Below, one piece after another: positions 19,123-49,400 of a DNA stretch of 64,000 nt. The notes beneath the pieces are model-generated. The model was not told where the DNA came from. It worked only from the letters and a program-made list of their open reading frames with translations, and made no database searches. Source of the stretch: Bactericera cockerelli (taxonomy: Eukaryota; Arthropoda; Insecta; Hemiptera; Triozidae). Each line of letters starts with the position of its first letter. Position 1 is the stretch's first letter. Location: assembly GCA_024516035.1 (NCBI GenBank), contig CM044960.1, positions 20,724,668-20,788,667 of the forward strand, read 5' to 3'. Made by a program: the position numbers and the translations under genes.

Positions 19123-20095
19123 TGACTAGATAATATTAAGAGCACTCACCTCAGGGTCCGTGTCCCTGTACTCGGGGCAGTCCTCCAGTGACTAGATAAT
19201 ATTAAGAGCACTCACCTCAGGGTCCGTGTTCCTGTACTCGGGGCAGTCCTCCAGTGACTAGATAATATTAAGAGCACTCACCTCAGGGTCCGTGTTCCTG
19301 TACTCGGGGCAGTCCTCCAGTGACTAGATAATATTAAGAGCACTCACCTCGGGGTCCGTGTTCCTGTACTCGGGGCAGTCCTCCAGTGACTAGATAATAA
19401 TATTAAGAGCACTCACCTCGGGGTCCGTGTTCCTGTACTCGGGGCAGTCCTCCAGTGATTAGATAATATTAAGAGCACTCACCTCAGGGTCCGTGTTCCT
19501 GTACTCGGGGCAGTCCTCCAGTGACTAGATAATAATATTAAGAGCACTCAACTCAGGGTTCGTGTTCGGGGCAGTCCTCCAGTGACTAGATAATAATATC
19601 AAGAGCACTCACCTCAGGGTCCGTGTTCCTGTACTCGGGACAGTCCTCCAGTGACTAGATAATAATATTAAGAGCACTCACCTCGGGGTCCGTGTTCCTG
19701 TACTCGGGGCAGTCCTCCAGTGACTAGATAATAATATCAAGAGCACTCACCTCGGGGTCCGTGTTCCTGTACTCGGGGCAGTCCTCCAGTGACTAGATAA
19801 TAATATTAAGAGCACTCACCTCGGGGTCCGTGTTCCTGTACTCGGGGCAGTCCTCCAGTGACTAGATAATAATATCAAGAGCACTCACCTCGGGGTCCGT
19901 GTTCCTGTATCCGGGGCAGTCCTCCAATGACTAGATAATAATATTAAGAGCACTCACCTCGGGGTCCGTGTTCCTGTATCCGGGGCAGTCCTCCAATGAC
20001 TAGATAATAATATTAAGAGCACTCACCTCGGGGTCCGTGTTCCTGTACTCGGGGCAGTTCTCCAGTGACTAGATAATAATATTAAGAGCACTCAC
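19123..20095 (-). repeat. Array A: about 14 tandem copies of exon 29 end plus donor
   Basis: The unit is 66 or 69 bp, differing by an ATA. In transcript sense each copy holds about 37 bases of exon 29, the GTGAGT donor and about 25 bases of intron. The array begins directly at the genuine donor. Copies differ by single bases. One copy (about 19530-19580) is shortened and has lost its donor. Confidence 0.95.
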
Positions 20096-20232
20096 CTCGG
20101 GGTCTGTGTTCCTGTACTCGGGGCAGTCCTCCTCCACCTCGAAGTAGAGCTCTGTGGAGGTGATGGACAGGGTGCCCTGTGCTGTGAGGCCTGGGGAGAT
20201 GAGGCGGGCCCGCGTGCTGATGTTCACCGGAC
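20096..20232 (-). CDS. Nbea: Nbea exon 29 (residues 1958-2003), start of PH-BEACH domain
   Basis: This exon of 137 bp encodes [20 protein letters not shown] then [20 protein letters not shown] and RNTDPE, the first strands of the PH-BEACH domain (TLSITTTEIYFEVDED in NBEA). The GTGAGT donor and about 37 exon bases are repeated about 14 times downstream (array A). No further exon was found to its left in the window. Confidence 0.97.
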
Positions 20233-23200
20233 CTGGTCAACACAATTATGATACGGTAGTAAGCTTGTAACGGTGAATTAAAAAGCCTACTTTTAATCCC
20301 ATTTGTACTATGATGGTATGCTGAAGGTATGATTGTACGAGATGTATGATTTTACTAGCGGGCTGTCGCCTGCTTTGCGGGCCGAGGCATGGCCGTGCGG
20401 AGAAATAGCGGTGTAAGCAAAAAATCCTTTTTCGCCAATGGTAGGTGTTGTAGTGGGAATTTCGAAAAATCCCGTCTTATTGCTCATCTAGACTATACGA
20501 CATAGCTACCTTCCAAATTTCAGCTTCCTAGGACTTACCAGTTTGGAGAAACAGTGATGAATCAGTGAGTCAGTCAGTCAGTGAAACTTTTATAAGTATA
20601 GATTTGTGGTGAAACACAAGGTCTCTTTACAATTTATTTCTTTTTACTCTGGTATTGCTGTCACTGGTCGTTACTCATACAACTACTCATTTTTCCTCAC
20701 TAGAATGAGTGGACCCCGAACATCCAAGTATAGAGCAGAAAAAAGTTCCTGCCCCGCTGGGGATCAAATCCAGGTCACCGTGCGTGCAAGGCCTAGCGCG
20801 CTAACTCACTCGGCAACGGTGACTACTCTGATTGCACTACATATTCGGCAGTAATTCTTTTCTTTATTATTTTAAGAACAAATAATAACCGACCTCAGTA
20901 ACTTGATCGATAAGGCAGCGGACTTGTAATCTGCAGGTTGGTAGTTCTAGTCCCAAGTTAAGCAAAATTTTAATATAGGAAGTTTGCGTGGTTATAATAT
21001 CAAGATTGTGATTATAAAAAAATGATTTGTGTTAATTTCTTTTCACGCATTGTAAATAACAAAAAATGTAAATAAATAAAAGTTATTTGTTGAAAAAAAA
21101 ATAATTGAGTGATAACTTAGAAAAAATCTGGTGTGACATCACACGACTTTCCTTATCACTCGAAAATAAGTCAAATTCTTTGGATTTAAGCTCTGGTGAC
21201 CCTAAAACGTGTTTTGGCACTAAAAACTGACAATCGAAAATTTTGGGTGATTCCATTACTTTCCTTTCTATAGAGGATAAGGAAAGAAAAAAAGGGGGGG
21301 AAAAAAAAAAAACATTCTACGTTTTAGGGTTTTGCAGTTTTTACCTGTAAGATCTATGTCTATGTCTCCCGCCCCGTCTATCAGCTCGCTGTCATCCATG
21401 AGCTCATGGCAGCTGCTGGTGCCGTTGGCTTGGGAGGATTGGGACACCACGGCTACTTGGGCATGGAAATCTTGACTTGCCTGGAACGGGATGAAATCGT
21501 GTCAAATGATCTAACTACGGCTTGTGTGATTTGTTTAGTGATAGATGAATTATAACATCTACATCATCATCATAGGGTGGCGTCATCGTGAACGATTGTA
21601 GTCAGACAATGGAGTAATGACTCAGCACTTCTATCACTGTCTTTACAAGGAGGTTAATAACTGACTAGGGCCCCCAGAACCAAGCCACATCTACATTAGG
21701 TAAATAAATTTTCCGTCAAAGTTCCAATCGTATCATGTAGAAAATAAGGTTGTAGTTGACACATTCCTGTAAAGGCTTGGGTACATAAATAAATAGTTAC
21801 AAACACGAAATCCAATCATTATTTGATTGCCTGGCTGATTGATGTATCCTAAAAGCGGGAACATCAGAAATTTTGAACGGGTTTCTCTTGGTTATACATA
21901 TGCGAATAATTAAAGGATTAGCTGAAATTCGAAAGAAGATATACTGAAAAATCATTACAGCGTCGGCGACAAAATACATGGAGTCGGGTTAGTTGACTAT
22001 AAATAATTCGTATTGCTCCACGAACGCATTGAATTTAACTGAGAATTTCTCATTTAAAACAAAATTTCTAGATCTCCTGTTCTGAACCTAAACAGTTTGT
22101 GTATGTGTAATGTACACATCTACACATAGATATTAGAGAGGAATTAAAATTTAATAATAAGATGTTGAACTTAAAATGGTTTGAAACTCACATGGGCTAT
22201 GGCATCTTCAGGCACTTCTTTTTGAGCAACTTTCTCGAGTGTGGCACTGGGGTGGGTGGTGCCCCGGGGGTTCCTTACGAACCTCTTGCGTCTCCTGGCG
22301 TCGTCCTCCCAGGAGTCTAGCTTCCAGAACTCCTGGATCCTGAGGAGGGGGGTGGAGAAGGTAAAATCACTATACTCGTACCTTTATTTATAACACATAC
22401 ACGACCGGCACCATTTTCAGTGTATGTACGCATGGGACCGCTATATCTGAGCATATCTGACCTCCTGGGACCGAAAAACCCGCTTGGAGAGTAAAATTAT
22501 ACAGGGGTATAGAGTATATTTCTATACTAAAACATAGGAATAGGTTTCCCACTGGTGGGACAAGCAGGATTGAAATCAAGAAGGTCACTTGTCCCACGGG
22601 TGGGACAACCGGTCCATTGCGTACACTCACTTGTCCCACCGGTGGGACAACCAGTCCATTCAGTACACACGCAGTTGTCCCACCGGTGGGACAACCGGTC
22701 GTGTATGTGATAAGAATACAGTAGTCACTGTGGCAGAGTGAGTTAGCGCGCTAGGCATTGCACACATGGTGACCTGGGTTCGCCCCCCCCGGGGGTTTGG
22801 GATTTTTTCTGCTCTGTACTTGGATGTTCGGGGTGCACTAATACCTCGTGAGAAAAAATGAGTAGCTGCTTTGATGTGAAGCAGCGACCAGTGGCAGAAT
22901 CATAGGCAAAAAAAAATACAAGATATTGTAAATTTAAGTGGTAAAGTCCTATGATTCTGCGCAACCCACAAAAATTGTGACATAATAACACAAAGAAAAA
23001 GCATTATTATTATAAGTATACAATCTGACGTAACCCGCATTTCTTTCGATTTTGTTTTTTTTTTTTTTATCACAATAGCCATTTCATCACAAGCTTTAAG
23101 CTATAATTTTTCTTCTCGAAAAGTACTAGCCTAACTCTTTTCCAATCATGAGTTATAGTTGCTTTTGCATGTGTCATGGCCACGGTGCCACTTTATTGAC

Positions 23201-26200
23201 AAACAAATCATGTACAGATGACCATCAATAAACCATTTTGCTCTCCTGAAAAAATAAAATATAAATGTGGCTTACGTTGGAGAGTATTGTGAATTTAATT
23301 TAAAAAAAAAAAGCATTAACTTCGCCCGGATTACAATACATTGTACATTTAAATTTAAATATTTTTTTTCTATATCTTATTTTGTAAATATTGTAATTTT
23401 TTTATCTTTGTTAATAATTTATTGTTGTTTGTTTTGTATAAAAAATAAAGTGTAAATAAATAAATAAAACGAGTGCGTTTGTGTGTGTGTGTTTGTGTGG
23501 GCCTTACCTTCCCGCCTCATTGTACGCCCAGGCACCATGCTTGTTGGAGAGAATATTGGAGACCTTGTCCAGGATTCGACCCGCCGTTCCTTGGTCCCTC
23601 CTCCTGGCGGCTGATATCAGATGATCGCACAGCCTCTCTTCATCCCTCCTCTCTTGCAGGGTCTGGGCACAGTGGGACTGGAACATACGAGTAGGATATT
23701 AGGCCTGGTTTAGTAATCGTCTAGAGTTCATCGTTAGAGCCACTAGGTTTATCCACGCAATCAACCAATTGTCTTAAGAAGTGGCGTTAATTAAATAAAA
23801 ATAGCTTTAAATATTAGACCTTTTCTTAAAAAGTCAAAGAGTAAATTTAACTATAAATGTGGGATTGGGGAGCTAAATTTTAATTATATTATTATAGTAT
23901 GCTTTAATAGGAGGACAAAGTACAATGTTAACAGTATAAAATTAAGAAAAAACAAACAGATGACAAAATAAATAGGTAAGAAAGAAAATAACACTAATGT
24001 CCTACCTAAAGGGCGGGGTTATTGCCTGTGGCAATCTCTTTCACCCAACCCTTTAATTCAACAGGGAAACCCTCATGAATCTGATGTTTGCCTTTGAGTG
24101 ATTTAGGGGTAAGTCTATCACTATTTTATAAATTCCTTTAAAAAAATACTATAATAGCTGAAAGTGTATAACTACAAATCAATGCACTACTAACTTCAAA
24201 CTCTGCATGTTTGAGGACATCATCCGCCCTCATTCTGTTGAGGATGAACTCTGCTTCGTTGGCAACCCGTACTATATGATCCTTCATGGCGTGGGAGAGA
24301 AGTCTGGAAGACAAGTCATATTTGTACAAAATTAGATTTAATGATTCTTTAAATCATTAAATGAAAAATTAAATAGTTTTGACCGGCATTAGCATAGATA
24401 AATATTATGGAAGTCACTAAGACATTATGTGTCCGGTTGATCCACAAAGGACTTCGTGACATTACCAAAATTATATACTTGTAAAACCGAGACCCATTTA
24501 CTAACTAACTACTCGTAATTCATTGAATGACTGATCACACGTATGATGATAAATGTTAGAAAGCAAAGATTTTGCGTTAAGGTTTCTATTTGTTTCTGAT
24601 TTTCCTTTTTATTGTATAGGTATATTGTTTCCATTTTTTCATTGTTATAATAATTATTTGTATTGTACATACTCGTATGTCTTTTTATATCAAATAAAGT
24701 GTTTAATAATAATAATATGAAATAACAACTCACCTGCCCTCGTTGATAAGCTCTATGAAATAACAACTCACCTGCCCTCATTGATAAGCTCTATGAAATA
24801 ACAACTCACCTGCCCTCATTGATAAGCTCTATGAAATAACAACTCACCTGCCCTCATTGATAAGCTCTATGAAATAACAACTCACCTGCCTTCATTGATA
24901 AGCTCTATGAAATAACAACTCACCTGCTCTCATTGATAATCTCTATGAAATAACAACTCACCTGCTCTCATTGATAAGCTCTATGAAATAACAACTCACC
25001 TGCTCTCATTGTTAAGCTCTATGACATAACAACTCACCTGCCCTCATTGATAAGCTCTATGACATAACAACTTCACCTGCCCTCATTGATAAGCTCTATG
25101 ACATAACAACTCACCTGCCCTCATTGATAAGCTCTATGAAATAACAACTCACCATGCCTTCATTGATAAGCTCTATGAAATAACAACTCACCTGCTCTCA
25201 TTGATAATCTCTATGAAATAACAACTCACCTGCTCTCATTGATAAGCTCTATGAAATAACAACTCACCTGCTCTCATTGTTAAGCTCTATGACATAACAA
25301 CTCACCTGCCCTCATTGATAAGCTCTATGACATAACAACTCACCTGCCCTCATTGATAAGCTCTATGACATAACAACTCACCTGCCCTCATTGATAAGCT
25401 CTATGAAATAGCAACTCACCTGCCCTCATTGATAAGCTCTATGAAATAACAACTCATTGGAGATAGGAAAAAAGATGATAGAGAAGACAGGGAACACACA
25501 ATCGATGAGTCACCTAGTAGCTAAAATAAGCATGACAATCCAGAGAGGTAATGCTGCCAGCGTGTTAGGAGCATTGCCATCAGAAGAATTGACTTCAATG
25601 TTCTATCTGTAACTTTTAATAAAACACATTTATCGATATTAATTTTAAACAACTCACCTGCCCTCATTGATAAGCTCTATGACATAACAACTCACCTGCC
25701 CTCATTGATAAGCTCTATGACATAACAACTCACCTGCCCTCATTGATAAGCTCTATGACATAACAACTCACCTGCCCTCATTGATAAGCTCTATGACCTA
25801 TGACATAACAACTCACCTGCCCTCATTGATAAACTCTGTAGCGTGCGCAATGCTATACTAAATGCTGTACTATAATCTTTTCATGTTTGTTAAATTATGT
25901 ATTATGTATAATGAATTCTACGGATAAGATATCTAATGTCTACTGATCTCGCCCTAAATTATCTTTAGGTGTAGACAATAATTTGGTTTTGTTTATTTGT
26001 GAAGGTAAATACGAATTGTTTTCGTGTTTGTTTATTTATGTTTATTTAAATCAATAGTTAGGTGATTTTCGTCAATTTATATTAATTATTATTACGTATT
26101 TAAAAACAATTTCATTGATTATTGTAATATATTTAAAAAGATTGGTCTGAGAGCAGCTATTTAGCTAATGTTTTACAGATTTTTGTTTCAAGTTACCATG

Positions 26201-29200
26201 TATTTTTGTGCCAACCATTGTAATATTTTGTGTTTAAAAATAAATACAATTATTTTTTATCTATCTATCAACCAACTCACCTGCCCTCATTGATAAGCTC
26301 TATGAAATAACAACTCACCTGCCCTCATTGATAAGCTCTATGGAATAACAACTCACCTGCCCTCGTTGATAAGCTCTATGAAAGCCAGACCCGCATGCTT
26401 CTGCAGCGAGGTCTGCCACTCCTGGGAGCAGAGCAGCATGACCAGCTCCACCACGGAATGGGACTGCTTGAATGTGACCAGGCCCTTGCCTTCCAGCAGC
26501 AGCTCCTGCCCGTGTGTGCCCACCTGGAGTCATTAATAATAATTCCGTGTCCGTGAGATAGGTATTGATACCTAAATCACGGTGTTGAGAGGATTATATG
26601 GACGCCCAGATACAATGTCTAGGCTCCTTTCATTTTTTTATTTTATTTTTTTAAAAAATTCACGGAGAAATCTCCATTATACAAGTACATTAGTTGTCCA
26701 TTAATTCTATTTGGTTTTAACGTCCTGACTTGAGGTAGACAGGACGGGGGTTTTATCTTCCATTCGCTGGGAATCGTACCAGCTACCCACATTAACCTCA
26801 CCCAGCCTGGGTAGGGCCGGAATTGCCAGCCTCACATGTTTCGGGGGGAACAGAATTGTCTGTGCGAAAAGTCTGCTCCAACCGGGAACCGAACTCAGGA
26901 TATCTGGACTACGGGCAGTAGTCACAACCGTTACGCCACGGAGACTGGCCTGGAGTCATTGGTTCAGTATCATAACTCTGGAGGGAATTCATTAAACCCA
27001 CCTAAAGCCGGCCACACACGTACAATGTACATATTACATATATGCATGTATGGGCGTGTGTAGCGAAAAAATATCACGAGCCCGTTTAAAGTCTATTGAC
27101 TGTTCTTGCATGCAAGTCATGTATGCATGTACGTATGTGACCGGCTTTAAGAATAACAAGTTCTCAAAGCTGGAATTGAATGCGATAATAGCAATACCAT
27201 ATGATAAGATATTCTTTTCTCCACCGGAATTATTTTAAAAGTCAATTTTCAGAACTACAACATTGCATCGAACACTTACTCGTACATCCAGAATTTAGTT
27301 TTTCTGTAGTGCTAAATTAACCAAACACCATTGAAGCCTGAGGCACACAACAAATGGTGCCTCCAGCACGTCTTCTGGAGCATGCTACATAACTCTTATT
27401 GTACAAGAAATTTGAAACTAATTTTCCTCATGTTCGTTTTGGTTACAATAGTGTTGACGCATGCGGACGAAAGCGTTTTTCGGTCCGATGTGTCCACCCT
27501 ATATATTTATTATTCTATGTAGGTACTTATCTGTTATCTTGTTTTTCCTTATAGGCATGGCCTTCAATGTATTTTACCTAACCATATTATAAAACCGAGG
27601 CATGGCCTACATTGTATTTTACCTAACCCTACTATAAACCCAAGGCATGGCCTTCAATGTATTTTACCTAACCCTAGGGGAGGAATTTGACATTTCCCAC
27701 GCATGCTCCATTGTAGTATACAATCGAACCAGGAGTTGCCTTTAGGCAAGTCTTGACGCATGCTTCATGTTGCTTACCAGCGTGCGGGAGAGGAAGGGCG
27801 CGAAGTCGAGCATGATCTCCCGCAGGAGGGGGCACACGGAGCCCAGGGCGGCCTCCAGCTTCTGGGTGAGACAGGCCTCGCGGGTGAGGGGCGGGGGCGG
27901 GGGCGGCAGGTGCTGGGCGAGGGGGGGCGGGGGCGGGGAGGAGGGCAGGGGGGGCGGGGCGCCCTGGGGCACCGCGAGCACGGAGATCTCGGCCCGGGGC
28001 TTCTCTCCCCGCTGCAGCCCGGCCCCCGCGTCTCCTGAGGGGAAAGCCAAGAGGCGTGTGTCAGCTTTTTATACTGCTGTTGTTGTTGTAGCCAGCTTGG
28101 CTACAGCTGGAGGGGTGAGTGATGGTCTCCAGCCAACTTTATTTCAAAGTTGGCTCGTCCTGATCCACATATTTCTATGTGCGATCAACCATCATGACTT
28201 ACTTATTTATAATCATACTGCCCAAATGCACAGCTCAGGGATATACTCACTTATTTCTAATCCATGTCGCTGAATGGTGGTAAAACCAAATTAATTGAAA
28301 TTTAGACGAAGACTCCTTTTTTAATGTGGGTGAAAAATACTAACTACTTTGTTGGTTTGTGCAGAGACATGTCTCACAGAGCTGGTTCAAGTGTTCCCTT
28401 AGAAATAAGCAGATCCCCCCCAGCTTAGTCATAGAAATAAACCAAAGAAATAAAATATTTAACAGGGCCTTATTTATTTTATCCTTCTAAGTACAACAGA
28501 TATTGTACTTTCAAGGGGATTTTAATGAAAAAAAAAAATGTAAAAGGAAATTAAATACATTCCTTCCTTCCACCTGATTCACTTGACCTCGTTTATGTTG
28601 AATTTCCTTTTAAAATAATAATACATAATAACTATTCGGGCATTGAACACCAGCTGATCACAGCTGATGAAAGTTTTATTAAAAGCGGATAAATGTTTCA
28701 GGAAGGTTGAAAATAAAAACAATATAGTCAAACTCGAACAATACATTCAGAATTCATAGCTATATGAATTCATAGCTATAGTTTCAAGAGTATATCACGT
28801 TTGTCTTGTTTTCTTTAGAGTTACAAAGCGAAAGTTTTCTTCATCAGATGCGGGATGTGGCACAATCTCCATTACCTCTTTGTATTTCCTCCTGAAGACT
28901 GCTGCTGTCTTCATTCAAGTTGACATCACTCCAGGTTTCATCGGCCATGCTGTTGCTTAGCTTGTTGTGTCTGTGGGTTTCATTCTGATTGTCTGTTTCA
29001 TTGGTGCCTGTGCTCTCCACATCACTGGCTACACTGTTCGCTTCTTCAGAACCACTCTGAGGAGAGGTAGAATAAGATGTGCCGTTAGTGAAACAGAAAT
29101 TTGACTAGTTTTAATGACCGCCATTATCATGGATAGTTTACTTTGTCAGTTTAGGACATGGAGTTCTTTTATGTTAACTTCTGCGGTAGGAGACCACAGT

Positions 29201-32200
29201 TTAAGGCGAAATTAATAAATTATACTTGAGGCAAAATTAAAAAATCACTGAGTAAAATAAACCAGATCTGATGGAAATGAAAACAGTGTGAACATGCTCA
29301 CTACATATGTATGTAGGTCAGTACTTGGTCTGGTGCACTGCCGTGAATATGCTACATATTCAGTGTATGCAATATGTTTGCCTGATTAGAGTGACTAGGT
29401 CCAAATGAACGCGCTCAGTAGATTTGTCTTCTTTTGTACGACAAATGCATACTGAGAAAAATATGGAAACTTCAATTAACAAAACATCGGAAATCCCAAG
29501 GGTTCGTACATAGATAGGTATCATTACCTTGAGAGTGTGCATATGTTGAGAGTAGTGTCGCCCCACAGACAGGTTGGGATTAACACCTTCGCTGCCTCCA
29601 GATTGAGACTCTAGCTCGTACTGCTGTAAAAAAAAAGGAGTGGACGTGTTGAAAATGAAGTGATAATTTTTTTTTAACTATCTGATTGAATTTTTTTGTA
29701 TCAAACTTTTTTATATCTTATATCATGTGAATAGGGATATATAAAACAAAATTTTAATATTTTATCAAACCAAGTATTGCAAAAACCGTACTTGAAAAAT
29801 CTTTTTTCTATAAAATGAACTTACCTTCATAGAAGGGGACTGAGCTCCAGAAAGGACGGAAGAATTATTTTCATGTACAACAATCACATCAAACTCAGGA
29901 TCTTCTGAAATATGAACGGAAATAACTTTGGTTATAACAACAGTTGATTAACTTAATACTTAACAGCAATAGTTTGATCAATATAATCATTGTTCTAATA
30001 TTTTTTTTTCAAACATTGAGAAATTATTTTGTTTTTTAAAAGAAATGAAACTACCCCACTAAAGAAGACTATACTGCCTTAGTGTGGGATAGCAGCATTA
30101 GATATTTGTTACCTATTATATCTATGATGTACAATTATTAATGCAAATAAATTACAAATTACAAAAATGGAAAAAATATTTTCACACCAAGAATCTCGTT
30201 ACTAATAATTGATTTGTTTGAGTATGAAGCATTGTAGCTAGAGTCAAAAAGAAATGTGAACACGGAAGGTAAAGTGAAAATCCACGAGTCATTTGTTTTA
30301 TTTGTGACTTATTCAATCTTTTTAACATTCTTCAATAAGCGCAGATGTCTCATACGAAGTGATACATAAATGGCATCTAACTACAGATAAGGAGATCATA
30401 GGCAACATGAAATCTATTTTCATAATATCCATGCATATAAAAAGACAAAAAGCTGCATGAATATTGTTTTGGTTCAGTAAATCACAAAGAAGTTTTGGCT
30501 TGACAAAGCTGTGCTGTGTTAAGTGAAGAGATGTGGTGATATGAAAAATAAAATAAATATAAACCATAAAAGTATAAGCATTCAATACCCCCCCATTTTT
30601 CAAATTATTTCTGGTTTTGGGAATCTTTATACGGGCGAATGGACAAACGCCCGATAGGTTCCAGTTCATGCAGAATATGTGTGTTGTGTCAAAACAAAAA
30701 ATAGTTACTTCACATATTGAGGCTGTTCAAATAAGTAAATGTATGTGCTACACGCTATGGTATGTGTTTGAGGGAGGTAATAAATATGAGAGTTAGCCAA
30801 CCTCGTCAAAATATACTGGTGCTACATTTAAATTGACTAAAAAACAATAATGCAATGGCTTATATTTTACTTTACAAGTAAAACTAATAACGAACAAAAT
30901 ATTTTTATCAAAACTAATAATTTTAAGGCTAATATTGTGACTAAAATAGCAAAATAAAAAACAAGCACACAATGCAGGAGGAACTAATCAGCTACTTGAG
31001 AATTTCAACAACACTAGGGCAAAAGATAATAATAAATTAGTGAAAACTTGCAACATCAACATAGGAGTTACTGAAAACTTGGTTCAAACCGTACAGCACA
31101 CAATGCGGTGGTACCAAGAGCTAGGGATATGTGTGTACCTGAGGAGGTGAAGGCCCCTCCCCCAGGGCGGGGGGAGGCGGCGGAGGGGAGGAACTGGGGG
31201 TAGACGTGGTGACTCCACTGGGCGAACAGAGGCCTACCTCCGCCTCCAGAGCAGTCTGGAGGTGGTTCAGTGTTTTTTGTTATTATTACAAGTACATTTA
31301 ATCTGCCAACCACCATTGTAAAATCTTCACTGATAAATACAATTATCTTTAATCTTTATATTCTATTCTATTCTATTTTAAGTACATTTTAACATTACAA
31401 CACTTTTCATCATGTACGATACGAGAGATGGAGGTTTGTTTTATTTCGAAAATCCAAATGATCTCTGCATCAAGTGTGCCACTTGAAGCAGCTCAACTCC
31501 AGGCAGAATTTAATTTAAGGTACCTACATTTAAAAATCCTCTATTTAAAGGTACAATAAATTAAAATTCAATTCTCATCATGGAAGTAAACCATTACGAC
31601 TTGAAAATTGGTAATTGAGAAGTACTTTTTTTTCTTCTTCTTTCTTTCTCAAAGGTAAAAAGACACAAGTTTTAATTTAGCCACTCAATAGACCTAACGA
31701 GGCTCAGTTAAAACAAGGTTTTATATCATGACTTGTCCATCGTATTCATTCAGGTATGAATGATGTCTGTATTGTGAATAAGCCTGAATGCATCACTAAA
31801 ATCTTGATGGTGCATAAAATTGGGACCTATCGAAAAAAAAAAAAAAAATAGAATCGAACCCTCTTATTTTAATAATACATTATCTGAGAGAAATATAACA
31901 GGTACAAAAAGGCATGACCGGATTGACCATTACGTTTAATTTAAATTCAGTCCCGTTGCAAAGTACGAGTAGAGAGCTAGTGGGGGGGAAACTCACCCTC
32001 ATGGGCCTGGTTGTTACTCTGGCTCAGGGGAGGACTCAGGGCTCGGGGCAGCAGAGGGGGAGGCTCCAGTATGTCTCGGTACTTGGAAACCATGAGGACA
32101 CTGATGAAGTACACCACAGCCAGGGACAGGAATTGCGCCTGACGGGAAGAGAAGACATATTCCACGGTTAGCATATTGGGACTACCTGTCTTGCGCTGAC

Positions 32201-35200
32201 AGTCTAAATAAAGCACTACTTATACTCATACATATTCCACTGTTAGCATCATGGGACTACCTGTCTTGCGCTGACAGTCTAAATAAAGCACTACTTATAC
32301 TCATACATATTCCACTGTTAGCATCATGGGACTACCTGTCTTGTGCTGACAGTCTAAATAAAGCACTACTTATACTCATACATATTCCACTGTTAGCATC
32401 ATGGGACTACCTGTCTTGCGCTGACAGTCTAAATAAAGCACTACTTATACTCATACATATTCCACTGTTAGCATCATGGGACTACCTGTCTTGCGCTGAC
32501 AGTCTAAATAAAGCACTACTTATACTCATACATATTCCACTGTTAGCATCATGGGACTACCTGTCTTGTGCTGACAGTCTAAATAAAGCACTACTTATAC
32601 TCATACATATTCCACTGTTAGCATCATGGGACTACCTGTCTTGCGCTGACAGTCTAAATAAAGCACTACTTATACTCATACATATTCCACTGTTAGCATC
32701 ATGGGACTACCTGTCTTGTGCTGACAGTCTAAATAAAGCACTACTTATACTCATACATATTCCACTGTTAGCATAATGGGACTACCTGTCTTGCGGTGAC
32801 AGTCTAAATAAAGCACTACTTATTCTCAAACAATCAAAAATATTCCACACGCCTATGGTTACAAAGTACAGAAAAAGATTGGTTGAATCACTGGAAACCT
32901 GAATCATGAGAAGCTTCGTCCATCTCGACGGTTGGCAAATGCAATAGTGCAACATTGCACTCCCTTTAATGAATTTTTTCTTGTTGATTTTGATTAAAAA
33001 CTTGAATACGAAAATTAATTAAAAGTGTATTTCTTAAGATTTATAAAATTCCAATTTGAACCCTCATAATAGTGGCTATATCCGACCCAACCAAGGTTGC
33101 ATAAATTTTAGTTGATTTTTCTTGTTGGGAGACGTTAAACACGGAGAAGACTAGTGTCTCGCTAGCGGACTATAAACAGAGAACTGACTAGCCAACCCTT
33201 ACAAGCCAGGCTAGCTTGCAGATTTCAAAGGGTTTAATGGCTTATAAAAAAAGTCCAAGTCCTCACGATAGTTGATCGCACATAGAATTATGTGGTTCAG
33301 AAAAATAAAGTTGGCTGGAGACCATCATTCCCCCTCCAGCTGTAGCCAACCCGGCTACAAAAACAATAAGTTTTAGTAGATGGTTTGTGAGTTTCCATCA
33401 AATGAAAGGTAAAAATGACATCCCAAATGATTTCTGATTTTCTACTACAAACTACAAACAACTGTGGGACTAGTAAATTTGTACTTCAGTGCAAAGAAGT
33501 ACACTAGCAGTTAAAGAAACACACTGAGTTTTTTTTACCCATTGTGTACCATGGGTATCATATATGATTATGTTTTCTCGCTACCTGATTATCAGATATG
33601 ATAGGGGTTATCCTTATCTTAGAGGCTGGTTATCAAATGTGTTAGACAATATAACATAATTTGCATGCTTAGCGGATTCCATAATTGGGTATCACATGTG
33701 ATAGACTCGGAAAGTAAAGTAAAAATTATTAATTATCACAGGAAACCTGTGTATCATATGTGATAGACAGCTGAAATCGATTGAATTGAGCCTGATCTCC
33801 TGGGGTTATCAGGTTAAAAGGGCCCGGTACACAATGGGTTAAATAATAGAACATTACAATCTAGTGATTACCTGTTTGCTCTCCTCTATATCCCGGTAGA
33901 TGGCAATAGAGCATTACAATCTAGTGATTACCTGTTTGATCTCCTCCATATCCGGTAGATGGCAATAGAACATTACAATCTAGTGATTACCTGTTTGATC
34001 TCCTCCATATCCCGGTAGATGGCAATAGAACATTACAATCTAGTGATTACCTGTTTGCTCTCCTCCATATCCCGGTAGATGGCGGCGCGCAGTCTGTTCA
34101 CATCCATGTCTTGCAGGAGCTTGTGCAGATCCTTCACCGGGGAGCTGGAGCTAGTGGGACCTCCGGGCACATCATTCGCGTTCTGGACACCCGGGACGTG
34201 GAATATGTCATTAGAAATACAATGCTACACGTTATTTTTTTTTTAAAACAACATTTCCATTTATTTGACTAAGATAAACTATAACAATAAAAAATAATAG
34301 GAAGGTACACCCGTCTTCAAAGTTAAAAACTGTGAAGAAGACGGGGAGTTTGGATAATTAGTTAATTACGTATCTATGCTTTTTCCAGATAATTATTATA
34401 GTTATTAGTTCTTTTTTCCACATTTAATTGAAAAAGTCAAACTAATGGCTGCACAGTTTATAAGTCTGAAAGATTTTTATGGTCATTGACGAATTCAGTA
34501 AGAGCAAAGCTATGAAACAGGATTAGATTAACACTATCACTTAACTCAGACTATAGTGCTTTGTGATAGGTTGAAATTCGCACTAAAGGGTGTCCTGTAA
34601 CCCGTTCCAGAAACACTTTTTACTCTCCAAATCTTCGTTTCAATTGTCACACAACGCACTCTGATTGGTTAATTTGAATGCAATGACCAATCAGAGTGCG
34701 TTGTGTGACAGTTGAAACGGAGATCTGGAGAGTAGAAAGTGTTTCTGGAACGAGTCGTGTGGTCAACTGGTCATGAGTTAATCAATCAGTGTATTTGTAT
34801 GGCTGATTTACGTAAAGCCATTGCGTCCGCTTGGTGATCGAGTGTAATATGTCATTGCGTGTTTAGTGACCTGACCTTCTTAAGAGTTTTTATTTAAGAT
34901 CACATGGGGGAAAATTATTTGGCACTGCAAAATAATAGCATATATGTAGTAATTGTTTTTTTTTTTTTTAATTTATTATGTAATTTTAGAATTATTGTTT
35001 AACTAACTTGCATCCCAACCTCTATTGTAAACTCTTATTGAGAAATACAATTATATTTCTATTCTATTTAAGATCACATAATGACTGAAAGCAGTTCAGT
35101 GGTTCTAATTATTATTCTTTTACCTTGGGTGAGGTCTGGGCTCCTCGTATCAGACTCTGCAGGTGGGCATTCTTGGTGGCATTGTTATAGCCGGGGGAGT

Positions 35201-38200: not shown

Positions 38201-41200
38201 ATGAAATAACAATAAGTACCTGGATGTCAGTCTGTATGAAATAACAATAAGTACCTGGATGTCAGTCTGTATGAAATAACAATAAGTACCTGGATGTCAG
38301 TCTGTATGAAATAACAATAAGTACCTGGATGTCAGTCTGTATGAAATAACAATAAGTACCTGGATGTCAGTCTCGAGAGAGAAGAGCACGTCTGAGAGGA
38401 GGCGCTGGTGAATGTAGGACCACTTGAACTCAGGTATCCTGAAGGGGGGCCGGGCCGGCCCGGGTGAGAACATGGGCCTCCCTCCCGGGCCCACGGACTC
38501 CTTGGCCTCCCCCCCATTGCTCAGATGCTTGGTGTCCACCTGTGTGGAGGTGGAGGCAGAGGGGGGCCGGGGGGGCTCCCTCACTGCATTGCCGGGCCTG
38601 GGGGGATGATTGTTGTTGATACTGTCAGGGTTCACGTTTATATTGTCTGGATTGTTGTTAATACTGTCCAAGTTATTGACATTATTCACACGCTCGAAGC
38701 TATTTGTGTTATTGAGACTGTCCGAGTCATTGTCAAGTTTGTTGATACTGTCTGATATACTGTTAATGTTGTTCACCGGAGGTGCTTCATCATTGGAGGG
38801 AATGTCATTTGTTGCGGCAGATAGTGCAGAAGGTTTAGAAGATGAGTCATCATCAGGAGCCTCACTGTGCTCTTCTGAGAGTTTCTCAGGAGATGCCTGG
38901 TGATCTAATGGGTTAAGTTCACTCTCCGCACCCGTGAGGTTGTGATTAGGAGAGGAGTCTTTGCTGGCAGCTGTGTGTACGGGACTCGTAGCTTCCGGAG
39001 CAATATCACTGTCCACAGACTTGTGTTTAGGAGAACTTTCCGTGCTGGGCACTTCTTTAGGAGAACTATTCACATGTTTAGTATCATCATGCTCACTCGA
39101 GTCAATATGTTGCGGTGAACTCTCCATACTGGACACTTTGTGCATAGGGGAACTCTCGATACTAGACAGCTTATGGATAGGGGAATTGTCTACACTAGGA
39201 ACATTAGTACTTGGGACGGATTTTTCGCTGTCGGAGCCTGCAATTGATCTTATGCTTTCCAAATCCGACAGCATTTTATCTTTGTCTTCACTACAGGTGC
39301 GCGAAAGAGGCTCACTCTTCACTTGGAATGATTTCTCTGACTCTGGTGGGGTGGGGGCGACCTCTTTGCTCTCAGCAAGGAGGATGGGTGTGCGCGTGCC
39401 ATCAGCTTCGTCTGGTCTAGTATCTGTACTAACAACAGGTGATACATCGGATATGTCACCATCCCCTCTATCCTCCACTTGACCACTATCATGTGTTGCA
39501 ATGATTTTCACCTCCAGTTCCTCATCTTGTTCATTAGCACCGTCCCCCACCCCTCTGTCACACTCCATGCTGTCATTCACATCATCCTCATCATGCTCAT
39601 GGCTCACCCCGTTCATCTGCTCCGGTGGAATCGTCTCCAAAGATTTTCTGTTCAGCAGCTCTTCCTCAGTCACCATGATCGAAAGTTCCGCTAGTTCCTT
39701 CTCAATACTTTCTCGATTTTCATTATGTATTCTTTCGTGCTGTAACAATTCCTGAGTCAAAGTCTTCACTTCGTCCAGGTCTACTCTATCTAAAGGTTTG
39801 GTAACTTCTTCATCGCTCTCAGGAGATTGTACGATCGCCGGAGAAATGTCGTTTTCTGAGCCGTTTTCTTCTGAGGGACTTGTAGGCTCTTTTGATTCAC
39901 TGGTCTCGGATTTTTTCTCCGGAGTGGTTTGCAAGGAGCTGGCTTCAGAGCCCGGGTCACACTTGCTAGGGGAGGGCTCCCTAATGGCGTACGCGACCTC
40001 CCCCGAGTTGTTAACTTGAGCTGTATCACAGGCGTCCGCTGGCTTCAGGTATTTCAGTCTTTCGTCTTCACTTTCCGTGGTAGTGGGATGCTGAAGCAAA
40101 AGAAAAAGAAAAATAATGTAAAGATTCTGAAATTTTTCTTTGCATTTTTTCTATAAAATAATTATAAAACCACAGGCAGGCATCAGGTCTACCCTCACAT
40201 ATGTAAGTATTTATGTACGAGTTTGATCAGTCACAATTTTACTTCCTAAACTACTGCTTGAGAAAATATTATTATTTAACCTAGTTATATGGTTTCAGTC
40301 GAAAATCAATAAAATTAACACTGCAACCTAAAAAGGTCTTTGGTGAAGCAATATTTGAATTTGCCCAAAATGAGATGAGAGTACTCAATAGAGTTTGTCA
40401 GCTTGACTATACCTCTGAGAGTGCAGTAGTTCGAACTACTACTCCCAAAAAGTTAAGTTTAGCTTAGGAGGTAATCCAAAATGTATATTTTTTTGATGTA
40501 AATAAATTTGCCACATTTTCAAAAAAAAAAAAAAAAAATATTTAATGGAGGCAGCATATCAGAATTTCTTTTAGAAAAGACCCCCAGAAAGAATGTCATA
40601 CCTCTGAGTCCTCATAGTCCATCCCGGAGGGCTGGTCCCAGCCCGATATCGTGCTGATGGGCCGCTGCTGCCGCAAGTGAGGGTCTGTGATGTTGTCGCT
40701 CCTCTGCCTGTCGTACCTCTCATACATCTGGGCGAACTGGAGCTTGAACTCCTCGTAGGAGACCTGGGGTAGAAGTTAGAGGGTATCGTATTTATTTATT
40801 TATTAGACAATAATATTCTCAAAATTGAGGATAGTTTACGGTACATAAGAGAAAAACATCGAGATACAATTATATTATTTTTAAATACTAATCTAAGATG
40901 CTATTACTACTATTAAATTGAACAGTGTAAATGTAATGGCGGTAAACACAAAAATATCGTGTTAGCCAGCGTCGATAGCACGTTGAATACACCCGTTCTC
41001 ATTCAGTCAATAAAGTTAAGCACCGTCTAGCGAAGCTAGAACTTGGATGAGTGACCACTCAAATTCAAAACCTCGTGATGCTGGCTATTCCTGGCCTTAC
41101 TTAGGCTGTTTGATGTTAATATGAGTAGCTGTAGCTGGTTTGTGAGTTTCTAGCGAATGGAAGGTCGTGATATGACTATATAAATCGAACGAATGAGATT

Positions 41201-43419
41201 TACATCGTTGTTATAGATATCACCCCAGTTTTCTCTTTCAATGATAATCATTTGAAATCTTTCTCCTTCTACATAAAGGGGGACTCTTACCTTGGAATGA
41301 ACGATAGCCAGTGTGTCCACCCATACTCTCCACCCCCCATACTCATGCTTGATGGCATGGTGCAGAAGCATACGGAATAGCGTGTACACCATTTCCGAGA
41401 TCTTCTGCTCGTCAGCGTTCTTTGGATGAATGTAAGCCATTGCAATCAACCACTCCTGTGAAATAAATAAAAGAAGCACATTGAACTTTGAGCAGTAGAT
41501 TCGGTATGTGGTAAATTCCAACACAATGCACATAGTTGTAAAATCTAACCTGGATATGAGAGAACTCAAGGGACCGAAAATTTATTCTCTTGTAGAAACG
41601 TTATTGTCCCTTATGAAAAGGTAAATTTGACCGAGAAATTGTTCTGTTATATTCAGGTTTCTCTTCAAAACCATCCACCTATGTGACATTTAACATAAAT
41701 TATTTTATTACTTCCGAGAAATTTCTGATATTAGAAATCGGAAGGTCTCATTTCGTAGAAAAAAACTGTATTCTGCCATATAAGACAAATTAAAAAAAAA
41801 AAAATCGATTGAGCCGTTTTGGAGATACAAGTAATTTAATATAAAATCTTAAAATTGCCACGTGTATACAGTGTGAACCAATCACGAGGAGTTATTGTGT
41901 CCATAATATGTATGCCATCATTTAATGGGTCTGAATATTGCATAAGTCTGAAGATGGGTCCTCCAGATGGTAGGACGGACGGACTGACCTGCCACACAGA
42001 CATCTGCAGCACCGTCCTCCTGTTCTCCCGGTTGTTGTTGCAGAGCAGGGTGAGGTCGGAGAGGAACAGCTTCTTCACCTCCAGCAGGAGCTCGCTGGGT
42101 TTGGACTGGCGGATGAGGGTCGCCACCACTTTCAGGATCATCGGGTTCTCTAGCCTAGGAGCGGAGGGAAACAATTGAACTGTCAGGAGTAATAATAATA
42201 ATAATATCGCCTTATTTATACAGCCCGATTAGGACTATTAGGGCGGAATTAATAGACGTTTTTGTAATACCTCTGTGACGTTAAGTCACGGATTGCGTAC
42301 TGTGTAAGATAGGGAAAACCGATGCTTAGCAGTAACTTGTGATAAATAATTTGTCTATTAATTCCGCCCTTAAAGTCCCATTATTCCAGCAGTAAGCCCA
42401 AGACATATTATTATGTGGTAAAAATCCCAATTGGGAGGATTTCGTTCCAGCTGGGTTTCGAACCCACGACCTCTGGAGTCTTTGGATTCACAGAGTACCG
42501 CCTTTACCACTGAGCTATTGGGACAGACTTAAATATGAAGAAGATAAAAAATGAGACCTAAGGTGATTTTCAGTTGCATTAAAACTCTAATATTTAAACA
42601 GTGATAAAAAAAATGGATTGTTACATTTATAACTATTTTTGTTTTCATCAAAATCATAATGAGTGATCAAAAAATTGCGCGATCAAAGGAAAGGCTATGT
42701 CTAACTGATGAGGATAGAAAAATGATAGGTCTTGCCAATCAAACACCTCGGACAAGGTTTGAGGAACGCCCGATAAGAAGAAAGAGACAGCGCGGCTGAG
42801 TGTAAAGTAACGGTAAAATTAGTTCCCATGTAACAAATTATATTTTCATAATATGAGACTACGATTCATTGTCATCTCTTTTGACTATGAATTAGTCACA
42901 GTCAGCAGATCTTCTACAGCTACACCCACGGGTGTAGAAGATCTGCTGACTGTCACATCTTGTGGCTATGAGTTAGTTCACATAACAATGAATCCTAGTC
43001 TCAAATTATGAATATATAATTTGTTACATATTGGATGTCAAACTTGTTGAATTTAGTTCCCATGTATTTCATAAACTTTTAGCCAGCGATAGATATTGAC
43101 AAGGAGGCAGTTCAATGTAGAGCGCGCAATTAGCTCAGTGGTTAAGCACTCGCTTGCCATGCGAAAGGTCCCGGGTTCGATCCCCCGTGCCGACAAAAAT
43201 TTGTATTCTTAATTTGGTTACAATTGTTTGTAAGGGATACCTTCTGATGCGCTCGTGTTGACCCAGCACCTAAATGAGAAGTATTGTGTCACTTCTCGCC
43301 CATCAGAGGGGAGGCATACTACGGGATGGGCACGCTACAACACAGACCACAAGCATCTGCAGTAGCTCCTGTTTGATGGCTACGAAATAAAAAAGGCTCT
43401 AAAACAATGTGAAACACTC

Positions 43420-43455
<36 letters not shown>

Positions 43456-46400
43456 AACTTTTAGCCTGCGATATATATTGACAAGGAGACAGTTCAATGT
43501 AGACTGGACGCGGGCGGGGCGGGGTGGGGCGACGTGCTGATTTTTTTTTTATTTTTAATTTTCCATTTATTTATTACAATTATAAAATGATACAGATTTT
43601 GAAATGCTTGAATGGTACCCTTTCTAAAGTTAAAAAACTGTGTTGAGAAAGTTGAGAAATTACCTGTAGTGACTCTCGGGCTCGGGGTGGCGGGTGTAGA
43701 GGATCTGCTGACTGATGTGCTCCGTCAGGATCTCGTACAGAACATTGTAGGTGGCGAAGGAGAGGGAAGCTTCGTGCTGCAGCAGCCGCTCTGCCAGGAG
43801 TGTGTACAGGTTGTGCGGCGACATTACGTCGTACTTGCGTCTGAAACGGAATAATAATAATAATAATATCGCCTTATTTATACTGACCGATTAGGACTAT
43901 TAAAGTCCCATTATTCCAGCAGTAAGCCCAAGACATATTATTATGTGGTAAAAATCCCAATTGGGAGGATAACATGTCATGTCCCAGCTGGGAATGTTGT
44001 TGTTATAGCCGGCTTGGCTGGAGGGGTGAGTGATGGTCTCCAGCCAACTTTATTTCAAAGTTGGCTCGTCCTGAACCACATATTTCTATGTGCGATCAAC
44101 CATCATGAGGACTTGGACTTTTCTCTATAAGCCATTAAACCCTTAGGAAACTGCAAGCTAACCTGGTTTTATTACAGTTGAACCTGGATGTACGAGAACG
44201 ATTCCGAGGTCTAATTACCCGCTGTAAATTAAGGAAAATTATTTCTTCATAAGAGAATTCTGGATGTAGGAGAAAAAAATTCTGGTTCCTCTTATACCCA
44301 GGCTCGACTGTATTACATTTTCTGGATACACTTTCAAACGGTCGTTTTTCTTCCGAAATCTATTATTAGACATCGGAAGTATTTTTTTTTTCTTTTTGAC
44401 GTCTCTTTAATCATTCGAGACGTTGCGGTGTTTTTACTTTCCATTCGCTGGAGAGTACTCACACTACTCACATTAATTGGTGAACATGTTGATCAATTGT
44501 GTAAAAAATGTTTTTTTTTTTTTTGTTGAAAAGTTGAGGATAGAAGTATTAGTCAAGTTAATGATTAAGTCTGTTCATTAGCAACTATGCCACTAGACTA
44601 GACCATCATGATTCGGTAGCATGATATAATAATATCGCCTTATTTATACTGCCCAATTAGTACTATTAAAGTCCCATTATTCCAGCAGTAAGCCCAAGAC
44701 ACATTATTATGTGGTAAAAATCCCAAATGGGAGGATAACTTGTAATGTCCGGGCTGGTTTTCGAACCCGCGACCTCTGGAATCTCTGGATTCACAGAGTG
44801 CCGCCTTTACCACTGAGCTACCGGGACATGATGACTCACTTATGCGTGCTCCTGCTGAGGAAGAAGCCCAGCAGCTTGAGAGCCTGCAGGCGGATGAGCT
44901 GGGAGCTGGAGCAGAGCAGCTTGAACACAGTCCTCACCCCCTGCTTCATGTCGAAGGCCGGCACCAGGCAGGCTGGGTGCTCGCACATGAGGGAGATCAG
45001 GGTCTGCAACACGTCGTGCAGGTTCTCGTCCTCTTGCACCTGCGGGAACACATACACATGCTATAGGTATATAGGTATACACATGCTGCGGGTACACATG
45101 CTATAGGTATATAGGTATACACATGCTGCGGGTACACATGCTATAGGTATATAGGTATACACATGCTGCGGGTACACAACATGCTATAGGTATGCAAGCT
45201 GGCAGATTTATAATCAGATGAACAGTAGAAGCGGTTTTTTTTTTTTTTTTTGAACGAAGCGAACCGAAGCTGACCTGGTCACTGAAATTCACTTTTTTTT
45301 ATTTGACCCGACCGAAAAATCCTGACCAGAGTGGACCGGCTCGTTCGTTCGGTCATGGCGTTTGGTTTGCGAAGAAGAAGTGGATGATTTCAAATGCAAA
45401 ATGTAAACTAACACCGATATCTTTAATGTAAACAAACCAGAGTTCCAAAAATCATTTTTTTTTATTCTTCAAATTTTGGTTAACCAGAGCTGACTGATCG
45501 ATCGGTCTCGTTCAGATTTTTCGTTCAATTAAAAAAAACCGCTTTAGGATACACTAAGATCCAAAAGTCTTATTAACTTCACGTGTGTTCCTCTTGATTA
45601 TAAATAACAACTGGACAAATGAGATGAAATAAATTATACTCTATATTTTGTAGAAAAATTACAATGATGAGAAAAACTCAAACTTAAAATTAAAGTTAAG
45701 TTATCATATTTCTGTTTATCAAAGTTAAAATACTCAAACTCGCTATACTAATTTTAGCTCAACTTGGAACGTTAACCACCGACCTCAAGGTTAAAACTCA
45801 TGATTATAGAAGAATAACTCGTTTGGCAATTTATTGGGAACGCTGGACCCCCTCTGATCATATTTTATGATCGAACTACTACCCTTCATATGTTTCCAAT
45901 ACAAACAAAGGTTAGTTAGTTAGTTATCATATTTGTGTTAATCACTTTCGTGCTATCACAACTACTCATACTCGCTTTATTAAATCTACGCTGAAACCGG
46001 GACTTGAACCACCGACCTCCAGGTTACAAGTCCGCCGCCTTATCAAAGATTTACCGTGGTGAGGTAGTTGAGTATGGACTGCAGCTCATCCTCCTTGACC
46101 CCAGGTCCCAGCATCATGAGCTGCTTGAGGAACAGCAGAATGTAGGCTCGCACTGCTAGGATGTCCTTCTGGGCGGGCCGGGGACCCTCTGGAACATGGA
46201 AGGAAAGGTATCATATTTATTTGTGTTAATCACATTCGTGATATCACAACTACTCAAACTCGCTTTACAAAATCTACGCTGAAACCGTGACTTGAACCAC
46301 CGACCTCCAGGTTACAAGTCCGCTGCCTTATCGATCAAGCTACTGAGGTCGGTACATGGAAGGAAAGAGATTGTGAGGTACTTGCATCAATTTATTCAAC

Positions 46401-49400
46401 CGGAAGCTAGTTTTCCACTGAGCACAACATTTCGATTCGAAACGCTTCACTATAGTTATTCTATAAAATATAAAAGACCTGTTTGACTGCTGGAGTAAAG
46501 GGACTTTTCAGTCTTACCTCGGCAGTATAAACAAGGTATATTCTATTCTATAGTTTGTCTCGAATGTTGAATGAAAAGTGCAAAGCAATGTTTCAGTCAG
46601 TAGGATTTGATCTCATTTAATTGTACAGGAAGAACTTTTCGAAACAAAATGTTGCGGTCAGTTGGGAACCGGCCAGCTTCAACATGTCGGTAGTCTGTGT
46701 TGTCGGAGTACATACCCTACAAGGTAGTAGAATTCTATAACTTGACCCCTTCATAAGTACGAACAAAGAATGTACATACATATGTTAAAGCCCAATTTCA
46801 CCGGGAGATAGTTTTACCGCAATGTCTGTATATGCATGCCTGAGTCCTATTTTTTTTTTTTTTTTTCTTACTTATTAAAATTTCTGTGTGCATTAGAAAG
46901 AAATATGCGAGTTGTTAACTTTGCTTACCCAACCCCTTCGGCAGGACACCTGTCTTGAGGCGCGGGTTGACCACCCAGTAGTAGAACTTGAGGGTGTGCA
47001 TGGTCTGCAGGATGGTGGACACGCGACGCACGTTGCTGTACACGGCGGTGTCCGCTAGGAACTCGGTGCCCAGATAGGCGTACAGGCGGGACTGAACAGT
47101 CGGGGGGGCGTGGATCCACAGGCGGGATTGAAGAGGATGTGGTCCAGAGCCTGCCGGAGCAGAAACGAACAGGAGAACTGAACGGGTGGGTGAGTGGTTA
47201 GTGGGTAATAACAGGGTATACGATACAATATGAACTAGTGGGTGAGTGGTTAGTGGGTATATGATACAACTAGCGGGCTGTCGCCCGCTTGTTTTTTTTT
47301 GCTTTCACGGCCGAGGCATGGCTGTGAAAGCAAAAAGTTCTTTTTCGCCAATGGCAGGTGTTGTAGTGGGAATTTCGAAAAATCCCAAAAAAAAATCGAA
47401 AAAAAAAAAAAAAAAAAAAAATCTTACTGCACATGTAGACTATAAGACAAAGCTACCTACCAAATTTCAGCTTCCTAGGACTTACCAGTTCGGAGAAACA
47501 GTAATGATCAGTCAGTCAGTGACATTGACATTTATATATGATCTGACGGGTGGTGATGGTTATGGTACGATACAATCGAATGGCTGGGTGAGTGGTTAGT
47601 GGGTATACGATACAATCTGAACCGCTGGGTGAGTGGTTAGTGGGTATACGATACAATCTGAACGGTGGGTGAGTGGTTAGTGGGTATACGATACAATCTG
47701 AACAGTGGGTGAGTGGTTAGTGGGTATAGATACAATCTGAACCGCTGGGTGAGTGGTTAGTGGGTATACGATACAATCTGAATGGCTGGGTGAGTGGTTA
47801 GTGGGTATACGATACAATCTGAACTGTGGGTGAGTGGTTAGTGGGTATACGATACAATCTGAACGGGTGGGTGAGTGGTTAGTGGGTATACGATACAATC
47901 TGAATGGTGGGTGAGTGGTTAGTGGGTATACGATACAATCTGAATGGCTGGGTGAGTGGTTAGTGGGTATACGATACAATCTGAACGGGTGGGTGAGTGG
48001 TTAGTGGGTATACGATACAATCTGAAGGCTGGGTGAGTGGTTAGTGGGTATACGATACAATCTGAACTAGTGGGTGAGTGGTTAGTGGGTTACGATACAA
48101 TCTGAACGGGTGGGTGAGTGGTTAGTGGGTATACGATACAATCTGAATGGCTGGGTGAGTGGTTAGTGGGTATACGATACAATCTGAACTAGTGGGTGAG
48201 TGGTTAGTGGTATAGATACATCTGAACGGTGGGTGAGTGGTTAGTGGTATACGATACAATCTGAATGTGGGTGAGTGGTTAGTGGTATACGATACAATCT
48301 GAACTGGTGGGTGAGTGGTTAGTGGGTATACGATACAATCTGAATCGCAGGGTGAGTGTTTAGTGGGTATACGATACAATCTGAACAGTGGTGAGTGTTA
48401 GTGGGTATACGATACAATCTGAACCGCAGGGTGAGTGTTTAGTGGGTATACGATACAATCTGAACCGCAGGGTGAGTGCTTAGTGGGTATACGATACAAT
48501 CTGAACCGGGGTGAGTGCTTAGTGGGTATACGATACAATCTGAACGCAGGGTGAGTGCTTAGTGGGTATACAATACAATCTGAACTGTGATGAGTGGTTA
48601 GTGGGTATACTGATACAATCAGAACTAGTGGGTGAGTGGTTAGTGGTATATATACAATCTGAACGAGTGGTGAGTGGTTAGTGGGTATAGATACAATCTG
48701 AACTACTGGGTGAGTGGTTAGTGGTGTAGGATACAATCTGAACGGGTGGGTGAGTGGTTAGTGGGTATACAATACAATCTGAACTAGTGGGTGAGTGGTT
48801 AGTGGGTATACGATACAATCTGAACGGGTGGGTGAGTGGTTAGTGGGTATACGATACAATCTGAACTAGTGGGTGAGTGGTTAGTGGGTATACGATACAA
48901 TCTGAACGGTGAGTGGGTATACGATGCAATCTGAACGGCTGGGTGAGTGGTTAGTGGTATACAATACAATCTGAACGGGTGGGTGAGTGGTTAGTGGGTA
49001 TACGATACAATCTGAACGGGTGGGTGAGTGGGTATAAAACTAAGAACAAAGTCCAGGCTAACAAAATAGCAATTTTCTCTCTAACCTCTGGTTGTGGGTT
49101 CAAGTACTATCGATACTTAGATATACCAACTTGATAGACCTTTCAACATAAGATTTTCCTGTTGTTAAATGTCACAAAGGTTCCACGTTCAAACCTTCAG
49201 ATTTTCTTTTCAGAATAGTCTAACAGATTTAGAAGGTCTAACATTTTTTGGGAAAACAGTTATTTTATATGTGGGGGCATTTTATTGACTATTTAACTTT
49301 GGATAGCACTTTCATAAATCTCTTAGAGTTCAACAAAATGGATTAGCTGAATATAAACGGCATAATAAAGCAAACATGATGATCAAATGGAATTTAATTG

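Follow-up and report, generated by a model that had tools for sequence, protein, structure and literature searches.

Splice-signal-bearing minisatellite arrays at seven intron ends of a neurobeachin-type gene in the psyllid Bactericera cockerelli

Seven intron ends of a neurobeachin-type gene in the psyllid Bactericera cockerelli each carry a minisatellite array whose unit contains the splice donor, branch point or acceptor of the intron concerned. We identified these arrays in a 64,000-nt stretch of contig CM044960.1 (hereafter the window), in which they are real features of the assembly, occur at high density, and are placed non-randomly. They represent a rare kind of repeat that has already been described, here found in an insect. 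Our main reading, to which we assign a probability of roughly 0.7, is that local tandem duplications at intron ends were expanded and tolerated, and that they are of the same kind as the “mirages” of amphioxus and the “exon stuttering” of chicken. An earlier note on this DNA had placed seven arrays among the exons, and all seven were recovered at those positions by TRF.

The gene is encoded on the minus strand and extends from about 62 kb down to 20 kb of the window, and all exons and arrays described below are on this strand. Exons were initially recognized by eye and were then checked against four homologous proteins, which gave 26 mapped exons with AG/GT at their borders and GT-AG introns of 471-9945 nt (n=25). 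This exon count is a minimum, the longest introns may conceal further exons, and the exon numbers of the earlier note run two to three above ours. The reading frame is unbroken across E2-E4, E6-E17, and E18-E26, with a single one-base frameshift in E5 (46929..47150), located at 47121 within a run of C, which is probably a base error of the assembly. E17 (31997..32138), the 3' end of which is uncertain, is out of phase with E18, and an exon was therefore probably missed between them. For protein comparisons we left out E1 and joined the two frame pieces of E5. Among the best 120 of 3790 matches, the protein of Diaphorina citri was most similar to this assembled protein (74%, covering 77% of the query), followed by that of Cacopsylla (67% over 67%), and by these similarities the gene is an insect neurobeachin that is closest to psyllid proteins. 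The matches thus point to a probable psyllid other than D. citri as the source of the DNA and speak against amphioxus. The Pfam domains DUF4704 and DUF1088 were found in the assembled protein, while a PDB search with two exon pieces gave no match. Two 5S rRNA-like stretches (40965-41086 and 54497-54618; Rfam RF00001) are also present and are perhaps 5S-derived SINEs.

Four of the arrays, A to D, repeat an exon end together with its 5' splice site, as had been claimed, and this was borne out by the exon mapping, by a copy-by-copy display, and by comparison of each exon with its unit. The units consist of the last 14-37 nt of their own exon and 18-32 nt of the adjoining intron, donor included, and their consensus exon parts differ from the adjacent exon by 0-1 base. 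Array A (19130-20132) adjoins E26 (20096..20232, with the genuine donor after 20096) and has a unit of 69 nt (66 nt in some copies), made up of 37 nt of the exon end and about 32 nt of intron that include the donor GTGAGT; it holds 15 donors, including the genuine one. Array B (24716-26383, in TRF blocks 24716-25456, 25648-25837, and 26273-26383) has 27 donors, again counting the genuine one, and a 38-nt unit in which about 20 nt of the end of E21 (26357..26523) is joined to 18 nt of intron with the donor GTGAGT. The exon part becomes 27 nt if a 7-nt overlap of exon and intron, TTTCATA, is included, and the array is broken by two inserts at about 25457-25647 and 25838-26272. In array C (33845-34083), a 60-nt unit with 33 nt from the end of E16 (34051..34182) and 27 nt of intron carrying the donor GTAATC provides four donors, one of them genuine. 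An element with the inverted ends ACCCATTGTGTACC, recognized by eye, lies at 33537-33839, some 5 nt away from the intronic end of this array. Array D (36927-38373) follows the 1731-nt exon E12 (38360..40090) and repeats a 35-nt unit comprising 14 nt of the exon end and 21 nt of intron in which the donor GTACTT is located, giving 32 donors with the genuine one included. It is split at about 37491-37815 by an insert with an 8-nt flanking duplication, GTTATTTC (by eye). Use of an inner donor would bring in a stop codon within the first added unit after 24 nt in A, 1 nt in B, and 15 nt in C, and in D the addition of a single 35-nt unit would change the reading frame. We saw no sign of selection against these decoy donors in A, B, and D, where donor columns were no more variable than other columns (0.11 vs 0.20, 0.00 vs 0.76, and 0.22 vs 0.23, respectively); this comparison covers only the modal-length copies of these three arrays (9, 21, and 28).

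The remaining arrays, E to G, had been described as repeats of branch-point or acceptor sequence, and we found such motifs in each of their units. None of these units contains sequence of the following exon, so that only A to D span an exon-intron boundary. Array E (32155-32832; nine copies of 75 nt) ends 16 nt before E17 and carries the branch-point-like motif TGCTAAC about 30 nt before the acceptor, and array F (45053-45193; 3.5 copies of 40 nt) lies beside E7 (44840..45039) and includes in its unit the acceptor of that exon, CCCGCAG. Array G (47165-49031) has a 41-nt unit and 37 CACTAA starts; it is made up of a main TRF block (47541-49031) and, beyond an insert at about 47281-47540, two more copies and a remnant at about 47165-47280. 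Similar elements are located inside this array (47260-47538) and about 112 nt before E26 (20345-20594). The G unit, CACTAAC...TTCAG, corresponds to the branch point, tract, and AG of the distal one of two E5 acceptors (47151-47183), and the TTCAG of its last copy lies 27 nt before the acceptor used in our map. Translation from the distal acceptor gives FSCSFLLRQ, where the Cacopsylla protein has FSASFLLRQ. Among the 36 proteins in which the pattern could be read (from the best 120 of 3790 matches), the extension is present in 11, including those of Cacopsylla, beetles, and others, and absent in 25. These counts, together with the Cacopsylla match, suggest that the two acceptors 27 nt apart constitute a conserved alternative acceptor, and array G appears to repeat an alternative E5 acceptor that is old in insects.

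The placement of the arrays was evaluated with a set of nine intronic minisatellites, which excluded exonic arrays (27893 and 39117), the array in a B insert (26073), periods below 20 nt, and arrays outside the gene with the exception of A. Seven of the nine carry a splice element in their unit, compared to 0.85-1.3 expected when each array was reduced to a single unit and its position randomized, with a per-unit probability of 0.075-0.19 (P 2e-6 to 3e-5 across four nulls, post hoc). The presence of donors in at least four of the nine had a P of 1e-4 to 5e-4. When the whole window was considered (arrays with a period of 20-150, three or more copies, and a TRF score of 250 or higher), all seven arrays held a splice element (P 6e-9), and without the score cut the result was seven of nine (P 2e-7), as two arrays of the dispersed family described below were added. 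All of these enrichment tests, along with the splice zones and the array cut-offs, were framed after the data had been seen. The earlier note's view of a non-random arrangement thus held within the window. Its statement that all of the larger arrays touch or nearly touch an exon edge was correct for the seven, but two smaller intronic arrays found by TRF lie off the edge: 22585-22700 is 245 nt away from E24, and 27553-27676 is 101 nt away from E20. The latter belongs to a dispersed 45-nt tandem-repeat family that also occurs at 472-669 and 9090-9290, inside the larger similar segments 1-2031 and 8621-10636. Low-copy duplications were not in excess at the other exon edges (4 of 45, against 22 of 250 background points), and no intermediate stage is therefore visible.

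We infer that the preference for exon edges results mainly from the introns still having been short when the arrays arose, which was the plainer view of the earlier note. If the introns had uniformly been 60-100 nt long, seven of nine would be expected or even inevitable, while P is 0.58 at 150 nt and 0.2 at 200 nt. With estimated lengths of the repeat-free intron remainders, seven of nine has a P of 7e-4, and with half of these remainders a P of 0.04; the lengths are estimates read from the inserts, and the 500 used for A is assumed. As the shortest intron is now 471 nt and the remainders give so low a P, the account requires introns that were well below 200 nt. It is compatible with a second set of sequences, as 6 of 24 transposon-like segments are found no more than 25 nt from an exon, compared to 1.2 expected (P=9e-4). 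These segments were defined solely by their similarity to one another inside the window, an element broken by an insert was counted twice, and one copy beside E1 lies just outside the counted span. This crowding of transposon-like copies at the edges favours short introns at the time of array seeding.

The main rival to this account is that DNA breaks linked to splicing or transcription, such as those from R-loops or from forks stalled at the compositional steps between exon and intron, seeded the duplications at splice sites. Clustering that is strong even with the repeat-free remainders (P=7e-4) speaks for this scenario, as does the involvement of both donors (four) and 3' splice sites (three). 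However, transposon-like copies crowd the edges in a similar, if weaker, manner (6 of 24), the other 45 edges lack an excess of small duplications, single units fold no better than their shuffles, and 0 of the 7 G4 motifs of the window falls within an array. We therefore lean toward short ancestral introns and regard seeding by breaks as a possible but rather improbable cause.

Copies share variants within arrays, and larger blocks have been duplicated as well. In array B, a variant block at about 25382-25153 recurs at 25115-24924, and in array D one variant pair is repeated on either side of the insert. The inserts inside B, D, and G indicate that these arrays are older than those insertions. 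The earlier note had cited variation between copies against a simple assembly artefact, and the shared variants, block duplications, and later insertions that we found strengthen this point. There are two 100-N gaps in the assembly and a probable base error in E5, and one amphioxus mirage is reported to have been misassembled in the genome draft (PMC3087553/PMC3902484). Nevertheless, shared variants, block structure, and unique inserts in B, D, and G are unlike a single copy stuttered in a consensus, and we consider such an artefact very improbable. Chance placement of ordinary intronic minisatellites has slightly less in its favor still, because the P values of the four nulls (2e-6 to 3e-5) and of the whole window (6e-9 or 2e-7) stand against it, even if there are only nine arrays from one gene and the zones and cut-offs were chosen post hoc. 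The units were also said to share no sequence, which is nearly right, except that B and D have in common the 13-mer TTGTTATTTCATA, which is present nowhere else in the window; sharing of 13 nt was reached in 4 of 400 resampled sets. This 13-mer and the sequences resembling element ends at which A and C terminate (by eye) would fit an origin of the units as pieces of transposons or introners carrying splice sites, but the exon halves of the A to D units are local exon sequence and no array unit is dispersed elsewhere within the window, leaving such an origin as improbable as chance.

Arrays contribute 884-1607 nt to each of the introns E4-E5, E12-E13, E16-E17, and E21-E22, in support of the earlier suggestion of intron growth, while the share is 141 nt in intron E6-E7 and about 1.0 kb after E26. 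The proteins of Diaphorina citri, Lygus, and Schistocerca have no insertion at E4/E5, E6/E7, E12/E13, E16/E17, or E21/E22, and the fourth protein, that of Cacopsylla, has 9 extra residues at E4/E5 only. These five junctions cover arrays B to G, and the junction of array A falls outside the comparison, as its downstream exon is beyond the window. Because the proteins join at the five junctions without insertion, the array copies are intronic. Tandem duplication of AGGT-containing segments had been put forward as a route of intron creation, and here we saw no new intron at the five testable junctions. From these alignments, the arrays are best read as lengthening existing introns, with no new intron position seen.

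We propose that each array would have begun as a rare tandem duplication of 35-75 nt at one intron end, of a stretch that included either the donor together with 14-37 nt of the preceding exon end or the branch point or acceptor. Growth would then have occurred by replication slippage and unequal exchange, of which the duplicated blocks in B and D are a sign, and selection would have held the coding copy fixed. The arrays may be tolerated because the outermost, exon-proximal splice signal still works and would support normal splicing, and RNA spliced at an inner donor would acquire a stop or a frameshift and could be cleared by nonsense-mediated decay. Two other drivers of expansion were considered and rejected: hairpins, as single units of all seven arrays fold no better as DNA than their shuffles (z -0.19 to 1.16), and G4 structures, as none of the seven motifs in the window is inside an array.

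Repeats of this kind have been described in two other groups of animals. In amphioxus, mirages are named in globins (BflGb6/BflGb9), with Adh3 also cited (PMC3087553), and are reported from TnC and PGBD5 with splicing undisturbed (PMC3902484). They are minisatellite-like duplications across the exon-intron boundary, at either end of the intron, with units that range from some tens of nucleotides up to about 160 nt and with splice signals in many copies (PMC3087553, PMC3902484). The units of A to D likewise span the boundary and match the adjacent exon, which is intact at the testable junctions. In these reports, mirages are a feature of the lancelet with one or two per gene, whereas here seven arrays are found in one gene of an insect with up to about 37 copies, and E to G differ from boundary-spanning mirages in that they lack exon sequence. 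Exon stuttering in chicken, according to a 2026 report, affects 236 introns, 190 of them on dot chromosomes, is stated there to be unreported in other vertebrates, and is speculatively linked by its authors to GC content or DNA secondary structure (PMC12954441). As described there, exon edges together with a donor or acceptor form imperfect tandems through the adjoining intron, as in our arrays, and E to G correspond to the purely intronic arrays that accompany them. In contrast to the GC-rich dot chromosomes of chicken, 4-kb bins here have 33-42% GC and the arrays contain no G4 motif. Tandem duplication of AGGT segments has also been modelled as a source of intron gain (the Rogers 1989 model, with potato RdRp as a case; PMC4974935), and our arrays resemble it in consisting of tandem copies of a splice-signal segment but appear to differ in that existing introns were lengthened, with no new position seen. 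Introners, the subject of another report (PMC9860276), are dispersed mobile copies that each form an intron. No earlier insect case of splice-site arrays was among the matches listed in the open-licence literature.

The psyllid arrays extend a phenomenon of lancelets and birds to an insect whose introns are AT-rich, where seven ends of introns in a single gene are affected, and an AT-rich case weakens explanations that are tied to GC-rich dot chromosomes. They also provide natural test cases for the choice of the spliceosome among many identical sites and for intron growth. It is tempting, though doubtful, to regard tandem duplication with splice-site-bearing units as a general and recurrent process at animal intron ends, as in lancelet, bird, and insect, in which splice sites or their transcription or splicing would act as seeding hotspots. 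If this were true, introns would be steadily lengthened and decoy splice sites multiplied.

Among the transposon-like copies near exons, a tRNA-like SINE (recognized by eye) lies in sense orientation beside the acceptors of E6 (46205-46356) and E1 (62054-62229) and beside the donor of E6 (45897-46044), and an antisense copy is found farther away at 62281-62362. ARAGORN identified no tRNA in these copies, and a search for one SINE-like repeat among viral and prokaryote sequences gave 0 exact matches. A 14-nt duplication that contains the polypyrimidine tract flanks the copy preceding E6, and because this tract was duplicated as the target, part of the edge crowding may reflect target choice rather than intron length. 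A second SINE family is represented by four sense copies (50010-50238, 43848-44169, 44626-44828, and 42177-42532). The acceptors of E4, E8, and E9 each have the (ATT)n tail of one copy at a distance of up to about 40 nt, the remaining copy starts 12 nt after the E7 donor, and it is intriguing to consider that this family might supply 3' splice signals.
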